A stretch of 55,389 nucleotides of DNA. Source: a virus. The position numbers and the translations under genes are program-made. Positions 1,015 to 26,556 of the stretch are shown in pieces. Every line of letters begins with the position of its first letter. The stretch's first letter is position 1. The stretch lies in IMG/VR virus record IMGVR_UViG_3300036826_000033, positions 1 to 55,389 of that record, one strand, 5' to 3'. The notes under the pieces are model-generated. The model saw only the letters and a program-made list of their open reading frames with translations, had not been told where the DNA came from and ran no database searches.

Positions 1015-2724
1015 GTGTCGATCAGCGACAATGACTTCAAAGCGCGCTTCGCCGCGTCGAAAAAGCGACTCACAGAACCAAGTCAGAATCACAGCACAGA
1101 AACGTCAGAAGAAATTGGTGACACGGCGGTCCCGTCTAGTCCGCAAATCGTTGAACCTCAGATCACGCCACCCACGAGTTGGAGCGGAGCGAAGCCACGC
1201 AAACGGGGACAAAAACAAGCTGCGGCGCCGGTTGATATTCACAGCACAGCTCCGCACTCAGTTGAAGCAGAGCAGGGTGTCATCAGCTCGATCATGCGCG
1301 ACGGGCAGCGCGGCAAGACTGACGTGCTTGAGCAAGTGCGACAGCGCATCAACGAGAATTTTTTCTACGTCCCAGCGCACAAGACGATCTACGAGATGCT
1401 CGTGTCGCTCGCAGCTGCAAACAAGCCACTCGATCTGATCAGCTTCACTGAATTTCTGCACAAGAAAGACGTGCTCAAAGCCGTCGGTGGCGCCGCTTAT
1501 GTGACTGAGCTGCACAGCTACATTGACAAGCTGACGAATTTCGTGCCAACTGCAGCGAACATCGACTACTACATCGGCATCGTTGTCGAAAAATTTGCGC
1601 GCAGAGAGATCATCGCTGACGCGACTCGACTTGTGCGCGGCGCCTACGGTGACGACGCTGAAGAGTTCGCTGTGCGTGTGCAGCGTCTGACAAATCGCAT
1701 CTCGCACATCGGCGCTGCAGCGAACGGAGCTTTCCCAGCGCTTCGCGACACAGCTGAGTTCTTCTCAACTGACGACCCGCCGATGCCGTCACAAGTGATC
1801 TACAGTGTGCTGCATCGCGGCAGCAAGATGTTGCTCGGCGGCAATTCAAAGGGTCGAAAGACGTGGGCGCTTCTCGATCTCGCGATCTCGGTCGCGTGCG
1901 GCGTTGATTGGTGGGGATTCCACACGCACAAAGGCGCTGTCTGCTATCTCAACTTGGAGCTGCAGGACGCGTTCTTTCGCTGGCGCGCAAAGACTGTCTG
2001 TCAGACGAAGAACGTGCAGCCAGAACCCGGGATGCTGTTCGCTTGGAATCTGCGCGGGCACGCGAAACCGATGCAGCAGCTCGTCAACGAATTGATCGGC
2101 AATTTGAAGCAGCATCACTTCGCGCTGATCATCATCGACCCGATCTACAAGACGCTGCCTGCTTTCAGAGGCAGCGAGAATGACAGCGCGATGATCACTG
2201 CGCTGCTCAACGAGGTCGAATCGATCGCTGTCGAGACGGGTGCGGCTGTGCTGTTCTGCTCGCACTTCAGCAAAGGCGAGCAAGCTGACAAAGAATCGAT
2301 GGACAGAATCAGCGGCAGCGGCGCGTGGGCGCGCGACCCAGACAGCTTGCTGACAATGACGGCGCACGAAGAGAACGAATGCTACACAGTCGAAGGCACG
2401 CTGCGCAACATGTCGCCAATTTTTCCGTTCGTCGTGAAGTGGGACTTTCCGCTCTTTATTCGGCAAGAGGAGTTGTCGCCAGATCGATTGCGGCGACGTG
2501 GCCCCAAAGGCAAGTCGCCTGATCTGTTGTTCGAAGTGCTCAGCGAGTTCAACGGCATGGAGCCAAAAGACGTCGTCAAAGCGATGAAAGATCAGCACGA
2601 CATCACGCGCGCGACCGTCTATCGAATGAAAGATGTGCTCGCTGAGCGTGGTCAATTCAAGATCGAAGAGGGTTTGTGGTTCAAAGTGAAACCTGAGACA
2701 AAACAAGAAACGAGTTCTGAATGA
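1015..2724 (+). CDS. Replicative helicase/initiator: DnaB N-domain plus RepA-like AAA ATPase
   Basis: 569 aa. After a low-complexity lead (1-75), residues about 79-185 match the DnaB N-terminal helical domain (SVEAEQ start, YVPAHKTIYE, GGAAYVTEL). Residues about 270-480 are a RecA-fold ATPase of the RepA/AAA_25 type: Walker A LGGNSKGRKTW (about 273-283, the GxxKxxKT form), Walker B LIIIDPIYK (about 372) and CSHFSKG sensor (about 416). The C-terminus (about 500-560) resembles a winged helix. By family it unwinds DNA and/or initiates phage replication. Start is GTG with no clear Shine-Dalgarno; an in-frame stop at 1003-1005 excludes anything longer. The heptamer cluster begins inside its last codons. 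Confidence 0.88.
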   Translation: MSISDNDFKARFAASKKRLTEPSQNHSTETSEEIGDTAVPSSPQIVEPQITPPTSWSGAKPRKRGQKQAAAPVDIHSTAPHSVEAEQGVISSIMRDGQRGKTDVLEQVRQRINENFFYVPAHKTIYEMLVSLAAANKPLDLISFTEFLHKKDVLKAVGGAAYVTELHSYIDKLTNFVPTAANIDYYIGIVVEKFARREIIADATRLVRGAYGDDAEEFAVRVQRLTNRISHIGAAANGAFPALRDTAEFFSTDDPPMPSQVIYSVLHRGSKMLLGGNSKGRKTWALLDLAISVACGVDWWGFHTHKGAVCYLNLELQDAFFRWRAKTVCQTKNVQPEPGMLFAWNLRGHAKPMQQLVNELIGNLKQHHFALIIIDPIYKTLPAFRGSENDSAMITALLNEVESIAVETGAAVLFCSHFSKGEQADKESMDRISGSGAWARDPDSLLTMTAHEENECYTVEGTLRNMSPIFPFVVKWDFPLFIRQEELSPDRLRRRGPKGKSPDLLFEVLSEFNGMEPKDVVKAMKDQHDITRATVYRMKDVLAERGQFKIEEGLWFKVKPETKQETSSE

Positions 2725-2960
2725 CTTACACGATTCCAGTCGTCACTGTCTCATATTACTGCGACGAACAATGTGAGACAGTGCTGAAAATCGAGCTGTC
2801 TCAATTTGTTTTCGACCGTCTCAGATTCTTTCTTGAGACGCGCTTGAACGCTGTCTCATGTTCACACACGCCTCCGGCGTGTTTGTGTGTGAGGACACAC
2901 CCAGAACATCGAGACAGCACGTCAAAGCGCTCCTCAAAATGAGACAAAGAACTTGAGACA
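2694..2960. repeat. Cluster of ten TGAGACA heptamers in both orientations
   Basis: TGAGACA (or TGTCTCA) occurs at 2694-2700, 2747-2753, 2774-2780, 2797-2803, 2852-2858, 2940-2946 and 2954-2960. One-mismatch copies lie at 2817-2823, 2834-2840 and 2910-2916. Plus-reading copies: 2694, 2774, 2834, 2910, 2940, 2954; the other four read minus. A hairpin (ACACGCC-TCC-GGCGTGT, 2866-2882) sits in the middle. A given heptamer is expected about 0.03 times in 270 bp counting both strands. The position straight after the replicative helicase suggests origin iterons or a repressor operator array. Confidence 0.8.
2721..2942 (+). CDS. Doubtful small ORF inside the heptamer cluster
   Basis: A 73-aa reading frame starts by ATGA overlap with the helicase stop but has no Shine-Dalgarno. 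Its composition (Cys- and Thr-rich, ending CLCVRTHPEH...) is unlike the other proteins here. It lies entirely within the repeat cluster, so it is more likely non-coding DNA that happens to stay open. Confidence 0.25.
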   Translation: MTYTIPVVTVSYYCDEQCETVLKIELSQFVFDRLRFFLETRLNAVSCSHTPPACLCVRTHPEHRDSTSKRSSK

Positions 2961-2961
2961 G

Positions 2962-3915
2962 ATGAACGTGCTGCTCTTTCAGCTCGACGGTAAAATCCCG
3001 AACATTGCGCTGATGCGACTTGCAGCTCATCATCGCGCGCTCGGGCACGAGATCACGTTCAGATGGACGGGTTCACCGCGCCGCGAATTGTGGGACGCGC
3101 CCGATGTTGTCTACGCGAGCGCGATCTTTGAAAAGACGAAAGAGCACACATGGCCGCAGCTGCTCGACGAGTTCCCGGGCGCGATCACTGGCGGCACCGG
3201 TATTGATCTCAAGCTCACGCTCGAAGACATCGGCATCACGACGCTCGCACAGGACTATTCGATCTATCCGAAATGGCGGCAGTCAATCGGCTTCACACAG
3301 CGCGGCTGTCGTCTCAAGTGCCCGTTCTGCGTGGTACCGCGCAAAGAGGGCGCGATTCGCGAAGAGCTGACGATTGCGCAGCTGTGGCGTGGCGACCCGT
3401 GGCCGCGCGAGCTGATCTTGCTCGACAACGATTTCTTTGGGCAACCGCACTGGCGCGAGCGCATCGAAGAGATCAAAGCTGGCAAATTCAAAGTCAGTTT
3501 CAATCAAGGCATCAACGCGCGTTTTCTGACTGACGAAGCAGCTGAAGCAATCGCGAGCGTCGACTACCGCGACGACTCGATGAAAGTGAAGCGCATCTAC
3601 ACGGCATGGGACAATCGTCGTGACGAACAGCGACTCTTTGCCGGGCTGCAGCGTCTTGTGAACTATGGCGTCAATCCCGACGCGATCATGGTCTACATGC
3701 TGATCGGCTACTGGCCAAACGAAACGAGCGAAGACCGGCTCTACCGTCAAGCAAAGCTGCGCGAGTTCGGCTGTCGACCGTATCCGATGCCGTTTGTGCG
3801 CACGAAAGAGCTGGTTGGTTTTCAGCGCTGGGTCATCGGCGCCTACGACAAGCGCGTCAGTTGGTCTGACTTTGTCGCTGCTGACTACGAGCCGCGGCAT
3901 CTCGAACTCGTGTGA
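2962..3915 (+). CDS. Radical SAM domain protein
   Basis: 317 aa from ATG 2962; a TTG three codons upstream (2953) is the alternative. The N-terminal ~100 residues have the alternating pattern of a B12-binding-like Rossmann domain. Cys116, Cys120 and Cys123 (GCRLKCPFC) form the CxxxCxxC motif that binds the 4Fe-4S cluster and S-adenosylmethionine. A TIM-barrel-like region follows (LILLDNDFF, SFNQGINAR, MVYMLIGYW). The reaction cannot be told; phage homologues are usually of unknown role, and base or tRNA modification is one possibility. It overlaps the next gene by GTGA. The last TGAGACA heptamer abuts its start. Confidence 0.85.
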   Translation: MNVLLFQLDGKIPNIALMRLAAHHRALGHEITFRWTGSPRRELWDAPDVVYASAIFEKTKEHTWPQLLDEFPGAITGGTGIDLKLTLEDIGITTLAQDYSIYPKWRQSIGFTQRGCRLKCPFCVVPRKEGAIREELTIAQLWRGDPWPRELILLDNDFFGQPHWRERIEEIKAGKFKVSFNQGINARFLTDEAAEAIASVDYRDDSMKVKRIYTAWDNRRDEQRLFAGLQRLVNYGVNPDAIMVYMLIGYWPNETSEDRLYRQAKLREFGCRPYPMPFVRTKELVGFQRWVIGAYDKRVSWSDFVAADYEPRHLELV

Positions 3916-7060: not shown

Positions 7061-7386
7061 GTTTCGTCTTTCTTCAATGCGTCGCGATAAGCGGCGCGAC
7101 GTTCGAGCCAGCGTTCCATCTGCACTTTGCATTCAACACCGCTGCCAAAAAAGTATCGTGGGAAACCGTCAGCTCCGTCGAGATCGCTGTTGTGGCCTTC
7201 GACATGAATCAGCCAGTCGCCGCGGTCGCAGTAAGACGGGCGCGGCGTCAAGTGAATCTCATACTCACCGACGCCGCGCTGCGTCAAAATTTTCACGGTC
7301 AGCTCCCACTCAGCGAACTCGTTGAAGCGCCAATCGAGCTTCGTGTCACGCTTCGCGAGCGGAGCTTTGCCGTGAACGTCAATCAT
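7057..7386 (-). CDS. Hypothetical protein, 109 aa
   Basis: Not recognised. Beta-rich (WELTVKILTQRG, YEIHLTPRPS, GDWLIHVEG) with a charged C-terminal helix. ATGA overlap makes it directly coupled to the GHKL-zincin gene, so the two products may act together. Confidence 0.65.
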   Translation of the reverse strand: MIDVHGKAPLAKRDTKLDWRFNEFAEWELTVKILTQRGVGEYEIHLTPRPSYCDRGDWLIHVEGHNSDLDGADGFPRYFFGSGVECKVQMERWLERRAAYRDALKKDET

Positions 7387-8825
7387 GCTTTCGGCAGCCT
7401 CCCTTCGCGTCCGAGCTGCATCGCTTTCGCTGCGAGTTTCGTGAGCGCTCTGTAGTAGTGCTCATCGAGATGGTTCGACTCGTAGTGATGCCCGAACTCA
7501 TGGATGATCAGATCGTCGATGCGCAGCTGATTCGTGTCGAGATCGAACCACTTGCGACCGAGATTGCGCACGTTGAACGACAGACTGCGTCCGCCCCAGC
7601 TCGCGTTCTCATACGATGCCTGCTTGCAGAAGCGCACAGTGATCGAGCAGCCGAGCAGAAGCTCAGCGAGCTTCAGTGCATACGCTGCGACGCGTTTCAT
7701 GTTCTCATCGGGTTCGACCGGCTCAGTCGCAATCGATTTCTCTGGCTGTGTCGGAAACAGCTGCCCAGCGGGCTGAATTGCTTCGTGCTCTTTGACGTTG
7801 TCCCACGCGGCGCCACTCAGCATCCCGCCAGTCACGACTGTGTAGCCGTGCGCGGTCGCTGTGCGATTCGCCTCTGGGTCGCTCATGTCGAAGCTGACGC
7901 GTTTCTCGCCGAATTTGTTCGTCATGAATGACTGCACTGCTTCAGGCGCGATGTCGTGCTGCTCAATCGCTTTTTGCACCCACGTTTCATTCGTCTGTTC
8001 AACACTCAGCTCAGCGTGCGTGACGTTCATCACTTCGAGCGCGAGACGTTTCTTGAAATAGCCCGACAACGTGTTCTTGCGATCAAGCGTCACTGGCACT
8101 TTCTGCATCACGTCACAGTGAAAAGCGCAGTCGATCTTGCAGATCGGGATTCCCATCTCGTAGAGCGTCGGCATTTCGCCATCGCGCGGTTCGTGCAGAT
8201 GAATCTGCGTCTTGCGACTTGTGCGGCGAAAATGCCGCTCAGAGTCTTCGACGTAGGTTTCCATGACTGCTTCAATCGTGTGCTTTGGTTCGCGTGTCGC
8301 GATGTAGGCGTCGTTGAACACAGTCACGATCTCAGCTGGCGCGAGCAGCGTCGACATCTTGCGCGTGACACGCTCGAAGTCTTTGCTGTTCATCTCGATC
8401 TCAGCTTCGAAGATCGAGCCTGCTTTCGTGCAATCGCTTTCTTGTCTGCGATTGCCGTCACTGTCAAAGAACACACTGCCTTTCGTCGTCTTGATCGACG
8501 CGCGCTTGCAGATCGCGAGCACGAGCTTTTCGCCAAGATTGAAACGACCGCGCTGCCGCGGGTTCGCTTTCTTTGTGCTCTCAGCGAAGAGCGTGTAGGC
8601 GTGATGTAAGTATTTGAATCCTTCCGGCGCGTCATCGATCACAGTCAACTTCGCGTGCCCGTTTGAAGCAGGTTTCAGGGTTATCTCAACGCGAGTGACG
8701 CCTGCTTCGTCCCATGCGTTCTGCACAAGCTCGTAGAGCGCGAACTCTTTGCCGCGATCTTCGAGCAGTTTCTTCAGCCCAGCTCGATCAACGTCGAACC
8801 ATGGCTGCTTCGATTCATTTCTCAT
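7383..8825 (-). CDS. GHKL-type ATPase fused to a zincin-like HEFGH domain
   Basis: 480 aa. The N-terminal ~230 residues carry the Bergerat-fold signatures: N box ELVQN (32-36), ADP-binding DDAPEGF (64-70) and G2-type GRFNLGEKL (93-101), as in Hsp90, MutL, gyrase B and histidine kinases. A middle domain follows. Residues 442-446 (HEFGH) match the HExxH zinc site of metallopeptidases, preceded by LRIDDLII as in a zincin active-site helix. By family the front binds ATP and dimerises; the rear could cut peptide bonds. The fusion is unusual for a phage and its role is unknown. The gene starts 12 nt from a paired-box promoter with no Shine-Dalgarno. Confidence 0.8.
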   Translation of the reverse strand: MRNESKQPWFDVDRAGLKKLLEDRGKEFALYELVQNAWDEAGVTRVEITLKPASNGHAKLTVIDDAPEGFKYLHHAYTLFAESTKKANPRQRGRFNLGEKLVLAICKRASIKTTKGSVFFDSDGNRRQESDCTKAGSIFEAEIEMNSKDFERVTRKMSTLLAPAEIVTVFNDAYIATREPKHTIEAVMETYVEDSERHFRRTSRKTQIHLHEPRDGEMPTLYEMGIPICKIDCAFHCDVMQKVPVTLDRKNTLSGYFKKRLALEVMNVTHAELSVEQTNETWVQKAIEQHDIAPEAVQSFMTNKFGEKRVSFDMSDPEANRTATAHGYTVVTGGMLSGAAWDNVKEHEAIQPAGQLFPTQPEKSIATEPVEPDENMKRVAAYALKLAELLLGCSITVRFCKQASYENASWGGRSLSFNVRNLGRKWFDLDTNQLRIDDLIIHEFGHHYESNHLDEHYYRALTKLAAKAMQLGREGRLPKA

Positions 8826-13828: not shown

Positions 13829-14635
13829 TTAGTTCAAGCCATGAACGTTCTCAATCATGCCGTCGCCGTCATCGATGACAGTCGCCTGCGCGCTCTTGAG
13901 CACGAGACCGACTTGCGCGTCGAACAAACCGTGCAAACGCTGAGTGCGTCTTGAGAGTTCGTTGAGCTGCAAGCCCTTCATCACGTCGGTGAAGCTGTTG
14001 AACAGCGACCACGCGGTGCGCGGCGCGAACTCGTCATGCTTCGGATGACGCCATTCTTGCAGCAGCGGCGGGACTTGCGTCGATGTCGCAGCGCGCGCGT
14101 CGATCGCGCGAACGATCAGATCGTGCGCTTGCATGTCTGAAAGTTCGAATTGCTTGTAGGCTTCGATGCGTGTGTCTTGATCGTGCCAGCGCGAAACGAG
14201 CTGACCGATTGATGTCTGCACGAGACCCGGCAAATCGCGCATGATGTGAACAGTGTGCTTGCGCGTCATGCGAATCTCGCCACTGAAGCTGAGATTGTCG
14301 CAGACGAACACTGACGCACCAACAACGAGACCAGCAGGGAAGCTCTTGTCGTGCGAATTGCGCAAACCGAGCACCCACGCATAGTCCTCAGAGTTGTGAC
14401 CGTTCGCGATCTGCATCAGCCCGAAGTAGCGATTGCCGCCGCGCGTCAGGCTGTGTGTCTGATTGACGATTGAAAGTCCGTCTGATTTGAGCGTGTCTTC
14501 GACGCGCTCGATCAGTGCGGTGTGAGGGATTGGCGTCCATGTATCTGTCGCGTCTGGCGTCGGGACGATCTCGACGTCAGCTCGTTCGACTTTTGATGCT
14601 CCGCAGTGGAGAATCAGGTCTGTCTGTTTATTCAT
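13829..14635 (-). CDS. DUF932 (phage/plasmid-like) protein
   Basis: 268 aa. Recognised from the order and wording of its core: ALIERVEDTLKSDGL, RYFGLMQIANG, LGLRNSHDKSFPAGLVVGAS then VFVCDNLSFSGE. These match the DUF932 family found in phages and plasmids, often next to recombination or antirestriction genes; molecular function unknown. It is a single-gene unit: paired-box promoter 11 nt before the ATG and a strong terminator after it. Confidence 0.8.
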   Translation of the reverse strand: MNKQTDLILHCGASKVERADVEIVPTPDATDTWTPIPHTALIERVEDTLKSDGLSIVNQTHSLTRGGNRYFGLMQIANGHNSEDYAWVLGLRNSHDKSFPAGLVVGASVFVCDNLSFSGEIRMTRKHTVHIMRDLPGLVQTSIGQLVSRWHDQDTRIEAYKQFELSDMQAHDLIVRAIDARAATSTQVPPLLQEWRHPKHDEFAPRTAWSLFNSFTDVMKGLQLNELSRRTQRLHGLFDAQVGLVLKSAQATVIDDGDGMIENVHGLN

Positions 14636-15464: not shown

Positions 15465-15728
15465 TCAGAGCGACAGCTCAGGCAGACCGAGCAACGCTTT
15501 CAAGCGTCGCACTGCGGTCAAGTTTTTGCCAATCGAAATGCCGAAGCTCGTCGCTCTGATCTTTCTGCCGCTGCGAAATGCCTTGTCAGCTTGTTCGCGC
15601 AGCTGCAGTGATCGTTGCTCAAGCACGTCGAGAGCAGACTTCACAGTCATCCCTCGCGGCATCGGGCGTCGTTTCGACCCAAACTTTGCGCGCTGTTGAG
15701 TCTTCAGCGTTTTTGCCAATTTGTTCAT
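15465..15728 (-). CDS. Basic hypothetical protein, 87 aa
   Basis: ATG 15728 overlaps the upstream stop as TGATG; a GTG one codon earlier is possible. Very basic (KFGSKRRPMPRG, RSGRKIRATSF) with a helical middle. May bind nucleic acid. Confidence 0.55.
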   Translation of the reverse strand: MNKLAKTLKTQQRAKFGSKRRPMPRGMTVKSALDVLEQRSLQLREQADKAFRSGRKIRATSFGISIGKNLTAVRRLKALLGLPELSL

Positions 15729-15982
15729 CACTTAGTTCTCCGACTTTTGCCAACTGAAGTTTCTGTTTTTGCCAACTTTTTTCGCAGCTTCTGTTTTTGC
15801 TCGCGCATGATGATCGCGTCTTGAAAGAGTCGCAGCACAGTCGAATAGCCGAGCGACATCGCAATGCGCAGCGGCGTCACTACCAGATCGTCGCAGCGCT
15901 CGCAGCAATCGCGCTCAGTGACTGGAAACGCGCTGCACGCGTGCGTGCTGTAGTTCTCACGACAAATCGAGCACGTTCTCAT
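15728..15982 (-). CDS. Small zinc-binding protein
   Basis: 84 aa. CSIC and CCERC near the N-terminus form a four-Cys site; a helix and a Lys-rich tail follow. ATGA overlap upstream, TGATG downstream. Confidence 0.6.
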   Translation of the reverse strand: MRTCSICRENYSTHACSAFPVTERDCCERCDDLVVTPLRIAMSLGYSTVLRLFQDAIIMREQKQKLRKKLAKTETSVGKSRRTK

Positions 15983-25212: not shown

Positions 25213-26556
25213 ATGAGCAACATGAATCCAAACTACGAACCGCGAACTTTGCTCGAAGCATTCGAGCAGGGGCCGCTCACTGCCACATTTCTGCGCGACA
25301 CTTTTTTCAAGGGTCGCGAGTATCCACCGACGCCGCTTGTCGAGTTCGACTTCAGGCGCGGTCGACGGAAGATGGCGCCATTCGTTGCTCCGCTTGTCGG
25401 CGGCAAAGTGATGGAGCGTCAGGGCTACGAGACGCGATTCTATCGCGCTCCACGCATCGCGCCCGTGCGCGCGCTGCGAACGCCTGATCTTGAAGCACGG
25501 CTTCCCGGCGAGACGATCTACAACGCGGGCACGCCTGCAGATCGCGCAGCTGAGCTGCTCGCCGATGACGCGATCTTTCTCGACAATGCGATCACTCGCA
25601 GAGAAGAGTGGATGTGCCGGTCACTGTTGCTCAATGGCTCGATCACGGTCACTGCAGACAACGGCTACACGAACGTGATCAACTTCATGGAGTCGAGCGC
25701 TGGCGCGCCGAACAACCACTATGTTCCAGCGATCAAGTGGGACCAGACGAACTCTGACCCGCTCGCTGATCTCGAAGCAGCGCGTCTCGCAGTGATTCGC
25801 GACAGTGGCATTTCGCCGAACGTTGCGCTTTTCGGCGCGAATGCGCGCAGCGTGTTTCTGAACAACGCGAACGTGGCGAAGTTTCTTGACTCGATCAGGT
25901 TTCAACTCGCTACGATCAAGCCGATCATCGACAGCGATTCGATTGTCCGCTTTGGCAGTCAGCCGGGGCTTGAGTATTACTCATACGCCGAATACTTCGA
26001 AGACGATGCGGGCACGCTCTACCCGATGCTGCCTGCTGATCTCGTGCTGCTGTTGTCGACGGAAACGCCGAACAAGATCGTGTATGGCGCATACACGCAG
26101 CTCGAAGACGTGAAAGCGAAACGCTTCGTGACTTATCAGACTGATCGAATCCCGTTCATCTACGGCGACGAAGAGGACGGGCAGCTGTTCTATCGTCTGA
26201 CGTCGTGCCCGCTGCCGATGCCGCAAGACGTTCTCGGCTGGAGAATCATCGAAGCGATCACGGGCACATCGTATCCGTTCCCGACTCCGGGTGAAGTCGC
26301 CTACTTCAATCCGAACGCGCCAGAGGAAGGCCCCGAAGAGGCACAGCCGCAAGGCAAAGAGGGCGTCGACTTCTGGAAACCCGCTGCGCCAGCTGATGAG
26401 AATGCCAGCGACGGCAACGGCGGAAATTTGAGCGATCACACAGTCGACGAGCTGCGTGACATCGCAGATCAAGAGGGCGTCGAAGTGCATTCGCACGCGA
26501 CGAAAGCCGAGATCATCAAGGCGATCAAGAAAGAGAGGAAAGCGAAGAAAGAGTAG
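25213..26556 (+). CDS. Major capsid protein (gpE-like) with HeH/SAP-like C-terminal domain
   Basis: 447 aa with GAAAGGAATC upstream. The first ~370 residues follow the lambda gpE type (LTATFLRDTFF, VEFDFRRGRRKMAPFVAP, RREEWMCRSLLLNGSI, GxNAR-type LFGANARSVFL). After a Gly/Asp linker (about 385-400) the last ~45 residues, VDELRDIADQEGVEVHSHAT then KAEIIKAIKKE, match the helix-extended-loop-helix (HeH/LEM, Rho-N or SAP-like) fold. That domain is normally a separate small gene near the capsid; here it hangs from the shell protein. Confidence 0.9.
   Translation: MSNMNPNYEPRTLLEAFEQGPLTATFLRDTFFKGREYPPTPLVEFDFRRGRRKMAPFVAPLVGGKVMERQGYETRFYRAPRIAPVRALRTPDLEARLPGETIYNAGTPADRAAELLADDAIFLDNAITRREEWMCRSLLLNGSITVTADNGYTNVINFMESSAGAPNNHYVPAIKWDQTNSDPLADLEAARLAVIRDSGISPNVALFGANARSVFLNNANVAKFLDSIRFQLATIKPIIDSDSIVRFGSQPGLEYYSYAEYFEDDAGTLYPMLPADLVLLLSTETPNKIVYGAYTQLEDVKAKRFVTYQTDRIPFIYGDEEDGQLFYRLTSCPLPMPQDVLGWRIIEAITGTSYPFPTPGEVAYFNPNAPEEGPEEAQPQGKEGVDFWKPAAPADENASDGNGGNLSDHTVDELRDIADQEGVEVHSHATKAEIIKAIKKERKAKKE

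Follow-up and report, generated by a model that had tools for sequence, protein, structure and literature searches.

The window analysed here, the whole 55,389-nucleotide stretch, is the record of a tailed phage. It encodes a contractile-tail set (terminase, portal, protease, capsid, sheath, tape measure and baseplate) and also carries RecT, methyltransferase and exonuclease genes. In this record a replicative helicase gene is followed by an array of short repeats around an imperfect palindrome, and then by a radical SAM-like gene.

The helicase gene (1015-2724, + strand) encodes 569 amino acids. The protein has a DnaB N-terminal domain (aa 79-192), an AAA_25/RepA-type ATPase domain (aa 247-422) and a predicted winged helix at about aa 503-557. 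It matches AAA_25 (E 9e-27) and DnaB (E 3e-22) in Pfam, and DNA primase/DnaB-like helicase in PHROG. The top Foldseek matches of its AlphaFold model are DnaB hexamers, and the family profile matches PDB 1g8y, the RepA protein of RSF1010 (E 2e-10). Pfam, profile and Foldseek together identify a RecA-type ATPase core akin to RepA and DnaB. No relatives of the helicase were found in bacterial and archaeal genomes by the method used, and a search for DNA similarity in phages and plasmids gave no match.

The winged helix is encoded by 2521-2685 (+ strand; aa 503-557) and is supported by the AlphaFold model, a domain-only model and co-variation with the repeat word. Its elements run in the order helix-strand-helix-helix-strand-strand, and the pLDDT of the block is mostly 81-89. 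The best PDB neighbours of the domain, taken as the last 70 residues, are mostly winged-helix proteins, with weak E-values. Like SaPI Rep and Cch2, the protein is predicted to have a C-terminal DNA-binding domain, here a winged helix. The specificity position of this domain, defined below, is Arg537 (codon 2623-2625).

The TGAGACA array and its palindrome

Ten TGAGACA-like sites lie in 2694-2960, in both orientations (+ - + - - + - + + +). Seven are exact, with starts at 2694 (+), 2747 (-), 2774 (+), 2797 (-), 2852 (-), 2940 (+) and 2954 (+); the other three, at 2817 (-), 2834 (+) and 2910 (+), have one mismatch. An earlier note on this DNA had listed these ten sites, and every coordinate in it is correct. 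It had placed them between the helicase and radical SAM genes. This needs a small correction: the first site (2694) is within the 3' end of the helicase coding sequence, the stop codon of which ends at 2724. The last site (2954) ends just short of the likely ATG of the radical SAM-like gene (2962). Several copies of a short word are thus clustered in the replication module, ten sites in 267 bp adjoining the helicase gene.

The window is the complete virus record, so its count of the heptamer is also the genome-wide count, with the proviso that IMG/VR contigs are possibly fragments. Exact TGAGACA occurs 11 times in the record; 11.9 copies are expected from shuffling. Seven of the 11 copies fall inside the 267 bp (scan log10 p -10.5, conditional on 11 copies). 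By this statistic the cluster is the most extreme of any 7-mer in the record; the most extreme cluster in 150 Markov-2 simulations had a log10 p of -4.5. The four exact copies outside it (9974, 39280, 45116 and 45875) are isolated, as the note had observed, and a similar density of the heptamer elsewhere, which it had named as evidence against its reading, is absent.

A 91-nt imperfect palindrome (2840-2930) sits between the inverted sites 2852 and 2910. It has an outer stem (2840-2845/2925-2930), an iteron stem (2850-2863/2904-2918) and two inner hairpins. The first of these (2866-2882; ACACGCC-TCC-GGCGTGT) is the GC hairpin that had been noticed in the middle of the cluster, and it proves to be the tip of this larger conserved structure. 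Its stem varies among four phages, with 5' sides ACACGCC, ACAACCC, ACAACTAC and ACACATC, and its TCC loop is constant. The second (2885-2900; GTGTGT-GAGG-ACACAC) is supported by the DNA fold, by the pairs predicted in the four phages and by a control in which the pairing partner is slid along the alignment. The DNA fold z-score of 2725-2965 is -8.4. In the four phages 33 pairs are predicted for the palindrome; seven are changed on both sides, all of them Watson-Crick with no G-U pair. Sliding the partner by 1-3 columns in three phages lowers the paired cells from 94% to 29-56%.

Association of the array with the helicase gene

Relatives of the locus were found through the helicase sequence (L001, L002 and L003) and through the DNA pattern (L209). 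A further contig, L004, ends within the helicase gene and is uninformative. Helicase identity to the window protein is 72% for L001 (best segment), 66% for L002, about 41-43% for L003 and about 53% for another locus, L040. The ten sites of L001 and L209 have positions and orientations identical to those of the window, and those of L002 are nearly so. L003 has a comparable TGAGACA array 3' of the helicase gene, with a different layout.

The radical SAM-like gene (2962-3915, + strand; PHROG 9298, E 1e-52) flanks the array on the other side. In L001 and L209 the gene after the array is not a radical SAM gene. The protein has at least 26 relatives in viral contigs, and ownership of the array by this gene is rejected, as none of the 26 fetched loci of radical SAM relatives carries it. 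The array therefore goes with the helicase, because the next gene changes in the relatives and the radical SAM loci lack it. On these comparisons the radical SAM-like gene is judged not to be part of the element.

Repeat words and the winged helix in the AAA_25 family

For a wider set, AAA_25 genes encoding helicases or primase-helicases were gathered from other phages. A 7-mer repeated at least five times is found at the gene 3' end in 13 of 30 nonredundant loci; the corresponding figure for control windows is 1 of 360. Perfect hairpins whose stems have at least 9 bp are found at this end in 47 of 98 loci and in only 9 of 588 controls. About 40% of the nonredundant loci in this wider family have no clear array. 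Where arrays are present their words vary (TGTAAAA, ACTAAAC, GGTGAAA, TGTCAAA, GGGACAA, CCGCAAA and others), and several have a hairpin between inverted sites, as in the window. In the window and its relatives the iterons follow the helicase gene directly, and the family statistics agree. No array was found 3' of the helicase in Sf6, a canonical-DnaB control in which the annotated origin is in an upstream gene, or in the Gordonia phage BillDoor (RepA-like) and Escherichia phage BUCT618.

Two further features were seen in this set. A hairpin with the tip TACTACGTA occurs about 105-180 bp past the helicase stop codon in L144, L166, L185, L191, L055 and others; common to many otherwise different arrays, it may be a family-wide priming or loading signal. 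L115 has a second dense repeat from about 8050 (CTACGGC/GCCGTAG, 14 copies), approximately 2.1 kb beyond the helicase gene; it bears no relation to the TGTAAAA array of that locus.

Over 100 nonredundant loci, with the ATPase contribution removed, arrays are more alike where the C-terminal domains are more alike (partial r 0.29, 0 of 2000 permutations). Given the C-terminal domain, there is no independent correlation with the ATPase (0.005). By this comparison the array word is tracking the predicted C-terminal winged helix, not the ATPase. The signal is concentrated in the recognition helix, at the residue three after a conserved Thr (the specificity position). Arg at this position goes with GGACA and Asn with GGAAA in 34 of 34 loci, the set being those in which Lys or Arg precedes the Thr and the specificity residue is Arg or Asn. 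Among 43 loci picked regardless of the specificity residue, 15 of the 16 with Arg have GGACA, and all 27 with another residue have GGAAA. The specificity column accounts for 0.81 of 0.93 bits; the next best of 386 columns has 0.35. In addition, Asp before the Thr goes with CGCAA in six of nine loci, against none of 23 for Lys.

The Arg/Asn pattern was first spotted post hoc in the array list and then fixed as a rule before the held-out test. Held-out loci were less than 85% identical to any earlier locus, and the rule was right in 12 of 12 (2 Arg, 10 Asn; Fisher p 0.015). On the ATPase tree there are eight Arg/Asn changes, and the well-supported independent pairs are concordant in five of five; a tree-based sign test restricted to well-supported branches has these five pairs and a p of 0.06. 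Most of the loci behind the rule are primase-fused relatives, and for the DnaB-N subgroup of the window it rests on five related loci. The window helix is R-A-T-V-Y-R, ending in Arg537, and the window word contains GACA. L003, with the helix R-A-T-F-Y-R, keeps TGAGACA, whereas L040, which is closer overall, differs in its helix and has the word ACTGCC.

Since the array overlaps the 3' end of the helicase gene, domain and sites can be inherited as one block, and their proximity alone could cause co-inheritance. Block linkage as the sole cause of the co-variation is disfavoured, since the signal of a single helix column far exceeds that of any other. The comparison covers well over 100 related viruses. 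It suggests that a single helicase residue dictates one base of the repeat. If the code is true, Arg specifies C, Asn specifies A, and Asp about one helix turn earlier specifies CGC. A limited literature search found no earlier report of a residue-to-base rule across the AAA_25 family; the paper it retrieved for AAA_25 phage origins concerns a phage helicase and not the helicase-plus-3'-array arrangement.

Origin reading, parallels and alternatives

The array and palindrome are quite probably an iteron-plus-hairpin replication origin of a myovirus-like tailed phage, directly 3' of the gene that encodes the phage's initiator helicase; this assessment is based on comparative sequence analysis. 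The earlier note had offered two readings of the site next to the helicase, an iteron origin and a repressor array. The first is supported by the travel of the array with the helicase, by the tracking of the winged helix by the word, and by the equivalent position of sites in Sfi21 and SaPI systems; the second is less likely. The note had also looked to GC skew for a turn near 2.8 kb. There is none: the cumulative minimum is at about 18.15 kb and the maximum at about 37.6 kb. The total range of the cumulative skew is small and it appears to follow gene orientation. GC skew is too weak and too gene-oriented here to place the origin. The array region is 48% GC, against 56% for the genome, and appears to lack a strong AT-rich unwinding element; the lowest nearby 40-mer is 35% GC, which is in the lowest 1% of the record.

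Origins of this general kind are already known. What differs here is the helicase class, the combination of an array with a covarying palindrome, and the residue-to-base rule. SaPI Rep and SCCmec Cch2 use a C-terminal domain to bind iterons that immediately follow their own gene (PMC7581432, citing Ubeda et al. 2007). The window shares with them a helicase with a C-terminal DNA-binding domain, here a predicted one, and short iterons immediately after the helicase gene. It differs in having ten inverted and direct sites with a covarying palindrome, and in a protein of RecA-fold DnaB/RepA type with a DnaB N-terminal domain. The Cch2 helicase has 3'-to-5' polarity and belongs to another class (PMC7581432). 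Membership of the window protein in the SaPI Rep/Cch class is rejected, as its Pfam domains are AAA_25 and DnaB and its structure matches DnaB hexamers. By analogy, the window helicase most likely works like SaPI Rep, without belonging to that class.

The record of Streptococcus phage Sfi21 (NC_000872) annotates an origin directly 3' of a putative primase gene. The origin is a non-coding stretch of 302 bp which gives phage-encoded resistance (PER) (NC_000872, PMC6356513), and it has nine copies of AGTAAC in both orientations, beginning at the stop codon. Phage origins cloned on plasmids act as phage-resistance elements, as with the Sfi21 PER (PMC6356513), which makes sites of this kind useful in practice. 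As in the window, a short word occurs in both orientations directly 3' of a replication gene. The Sfi21 protein, however, is a Pox_D5/SF3-type ATPase and not AAA_25, and its array includes AT-rich DNA.

RSF1010, like the window, has a RepA-type hexameric helicase, and its oriV consists of iterons plus hairpin priming sites. RSF1010 has three separate proteins for the helicase, iteron-binding and primase roles, whereas the helicase and putative iteron binder of the window are one chain; no RSF1010-type RepC or RepB' was recognised among the ORFs covered by a non-exhaustive search. The alpha protein of phage P4 is a helicase that also recognises iterons, as is proposed for the window protein. 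It differs in having a Toprim primase and another helicase class; P4 alpha and its iterons are mentioned in PMC4234260. The origin of plasmid pRN1 is a stem-loop of about 100 nt. It lies downstream of a replication gene whose product has a winged helix at its end, and pRN1-like stem-loops are also found in some phages (PMC4234260). The stem-loop after a winged-helix-ending gene is common to both systems, as is a stem which diverges in sequence and keeps its structure (PMC4234260); pRN1 differs in its prim-pol and SF3 helicase and has no iteron array. Lambdoid O/P and Sf6-type modules also have iterons within the replication module, but these are inside a separate initiator gene upstream of a plain DnaB (Sf6 record), and there is no array 3' of the Sf6 DnaB gene.

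The best of the alternatives is an autoregulatory operator, in which the helicase or another phage regulator represses its own operon or the downstream gene and the array has no origin activity. Initiators commonly autoregulate. In the window the downstream start codon follows almost at once on the last site, and in relatives it is also near; any binding role would be consistent with the co-variation between word and winged helix. An operator is nevertheless unlikely: the array is 3' of the helicase gene, away from its promoter, it stays while the downstream gene changes, and the same location holds the annotated origin in Sfi21 and the origin in SaPI/Cch2 systems.

Still less probable is a structured RNA (3' UTR, terminator or riboregulator) of the helicase transcript, in which the heptamers would be mere stem segments. 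The covarying stems and an RNA fold z-score of -7.2 would suit it, but Rfam gives no family match at the gathering threshold. The conserved core stem can do without sites 2694, 2940 and 2954, the first of which is in coding sequence. The changed core pairs are Watson-Crick only; in this small sample, the lack of G-U pairs hints at a DNA rather than an RNA structure. Moreover, the wider family keeps the heptamers and the hairpin position rather than one RNA fold, and the word follows a helix of DNA-binding type.

Partition, recombination, packaging and transposon-end sites can have inverted and direct repeats around a palindrome, and a centromere-like or other DNA site of this sort was considered. 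It is a very improbable explanation here: the terminase genes are about 15-16 kb distant, a non-exhaustive search of the ORFs recognised no ParA, integrase or transposase, and the array co-varies with the helicase. Chance or a composition artefact, for which only the short word length speaks, is dismissed by the scan statistic and by the conservation of the ten positions in independent contigs.

For the preferred reading, an origin served by its own helicase, a mechanism can be proposed. The C-terminal winged helix would bind the ten TGAGACA sites, a step strongly supported by the co-variation. Sites in both orientations could gather DnaB/RepA-type hexamers around the central palindrome, which may open or extrude as a cruciform and so provide single-stranded DNA for helicase loading and priming. 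The DnaB-type N-terminal domain suggests that a DnaG-type primase is probably recruited through it, and two forks may leave the array. A broader reading, given somewhat better than even credence, is that AAA_25 helicases are self-initiating: the winged helix would read iterons by a residue-base code and assembly would take place at a cruciform, with no separate initiator.

Few metagenomic phages have a known replication origin. Should the rule hold, many AAA_25 phage origins can be located, namely where the helicase or primase-helicase gene has its 3' end, and their word can be predicted in part from the protein alone, from one helix. The family would then also supply natural, swappable winged-helix/DNA pairs on a replicative helicase, and recruitment of a DnaB-type ring to an origin without a separate initiator would become directly testable.

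A few other features of the record were observed. Four TTTTGCCAA-like copies occur in about 250 bp at 15525-15775, three of them within 15712-15775, and the word is otherwise scattered; this cluster is possibly an operator. A 480-aa protein (7383-8825, - strand) has a borderline match to HATPase_c_3/sacsin-type ATPases, and a DUF932 protein is encoded at 13829-14635 (- strand). The major capsid protein (Phage_cap_E; 25213-26556, + strand) has a C-terminal segment at about aa 392-447 which resembles Rho_N and the tails of PHROG 'Arc-like repressor' and 'endonuclease VII' proteins.
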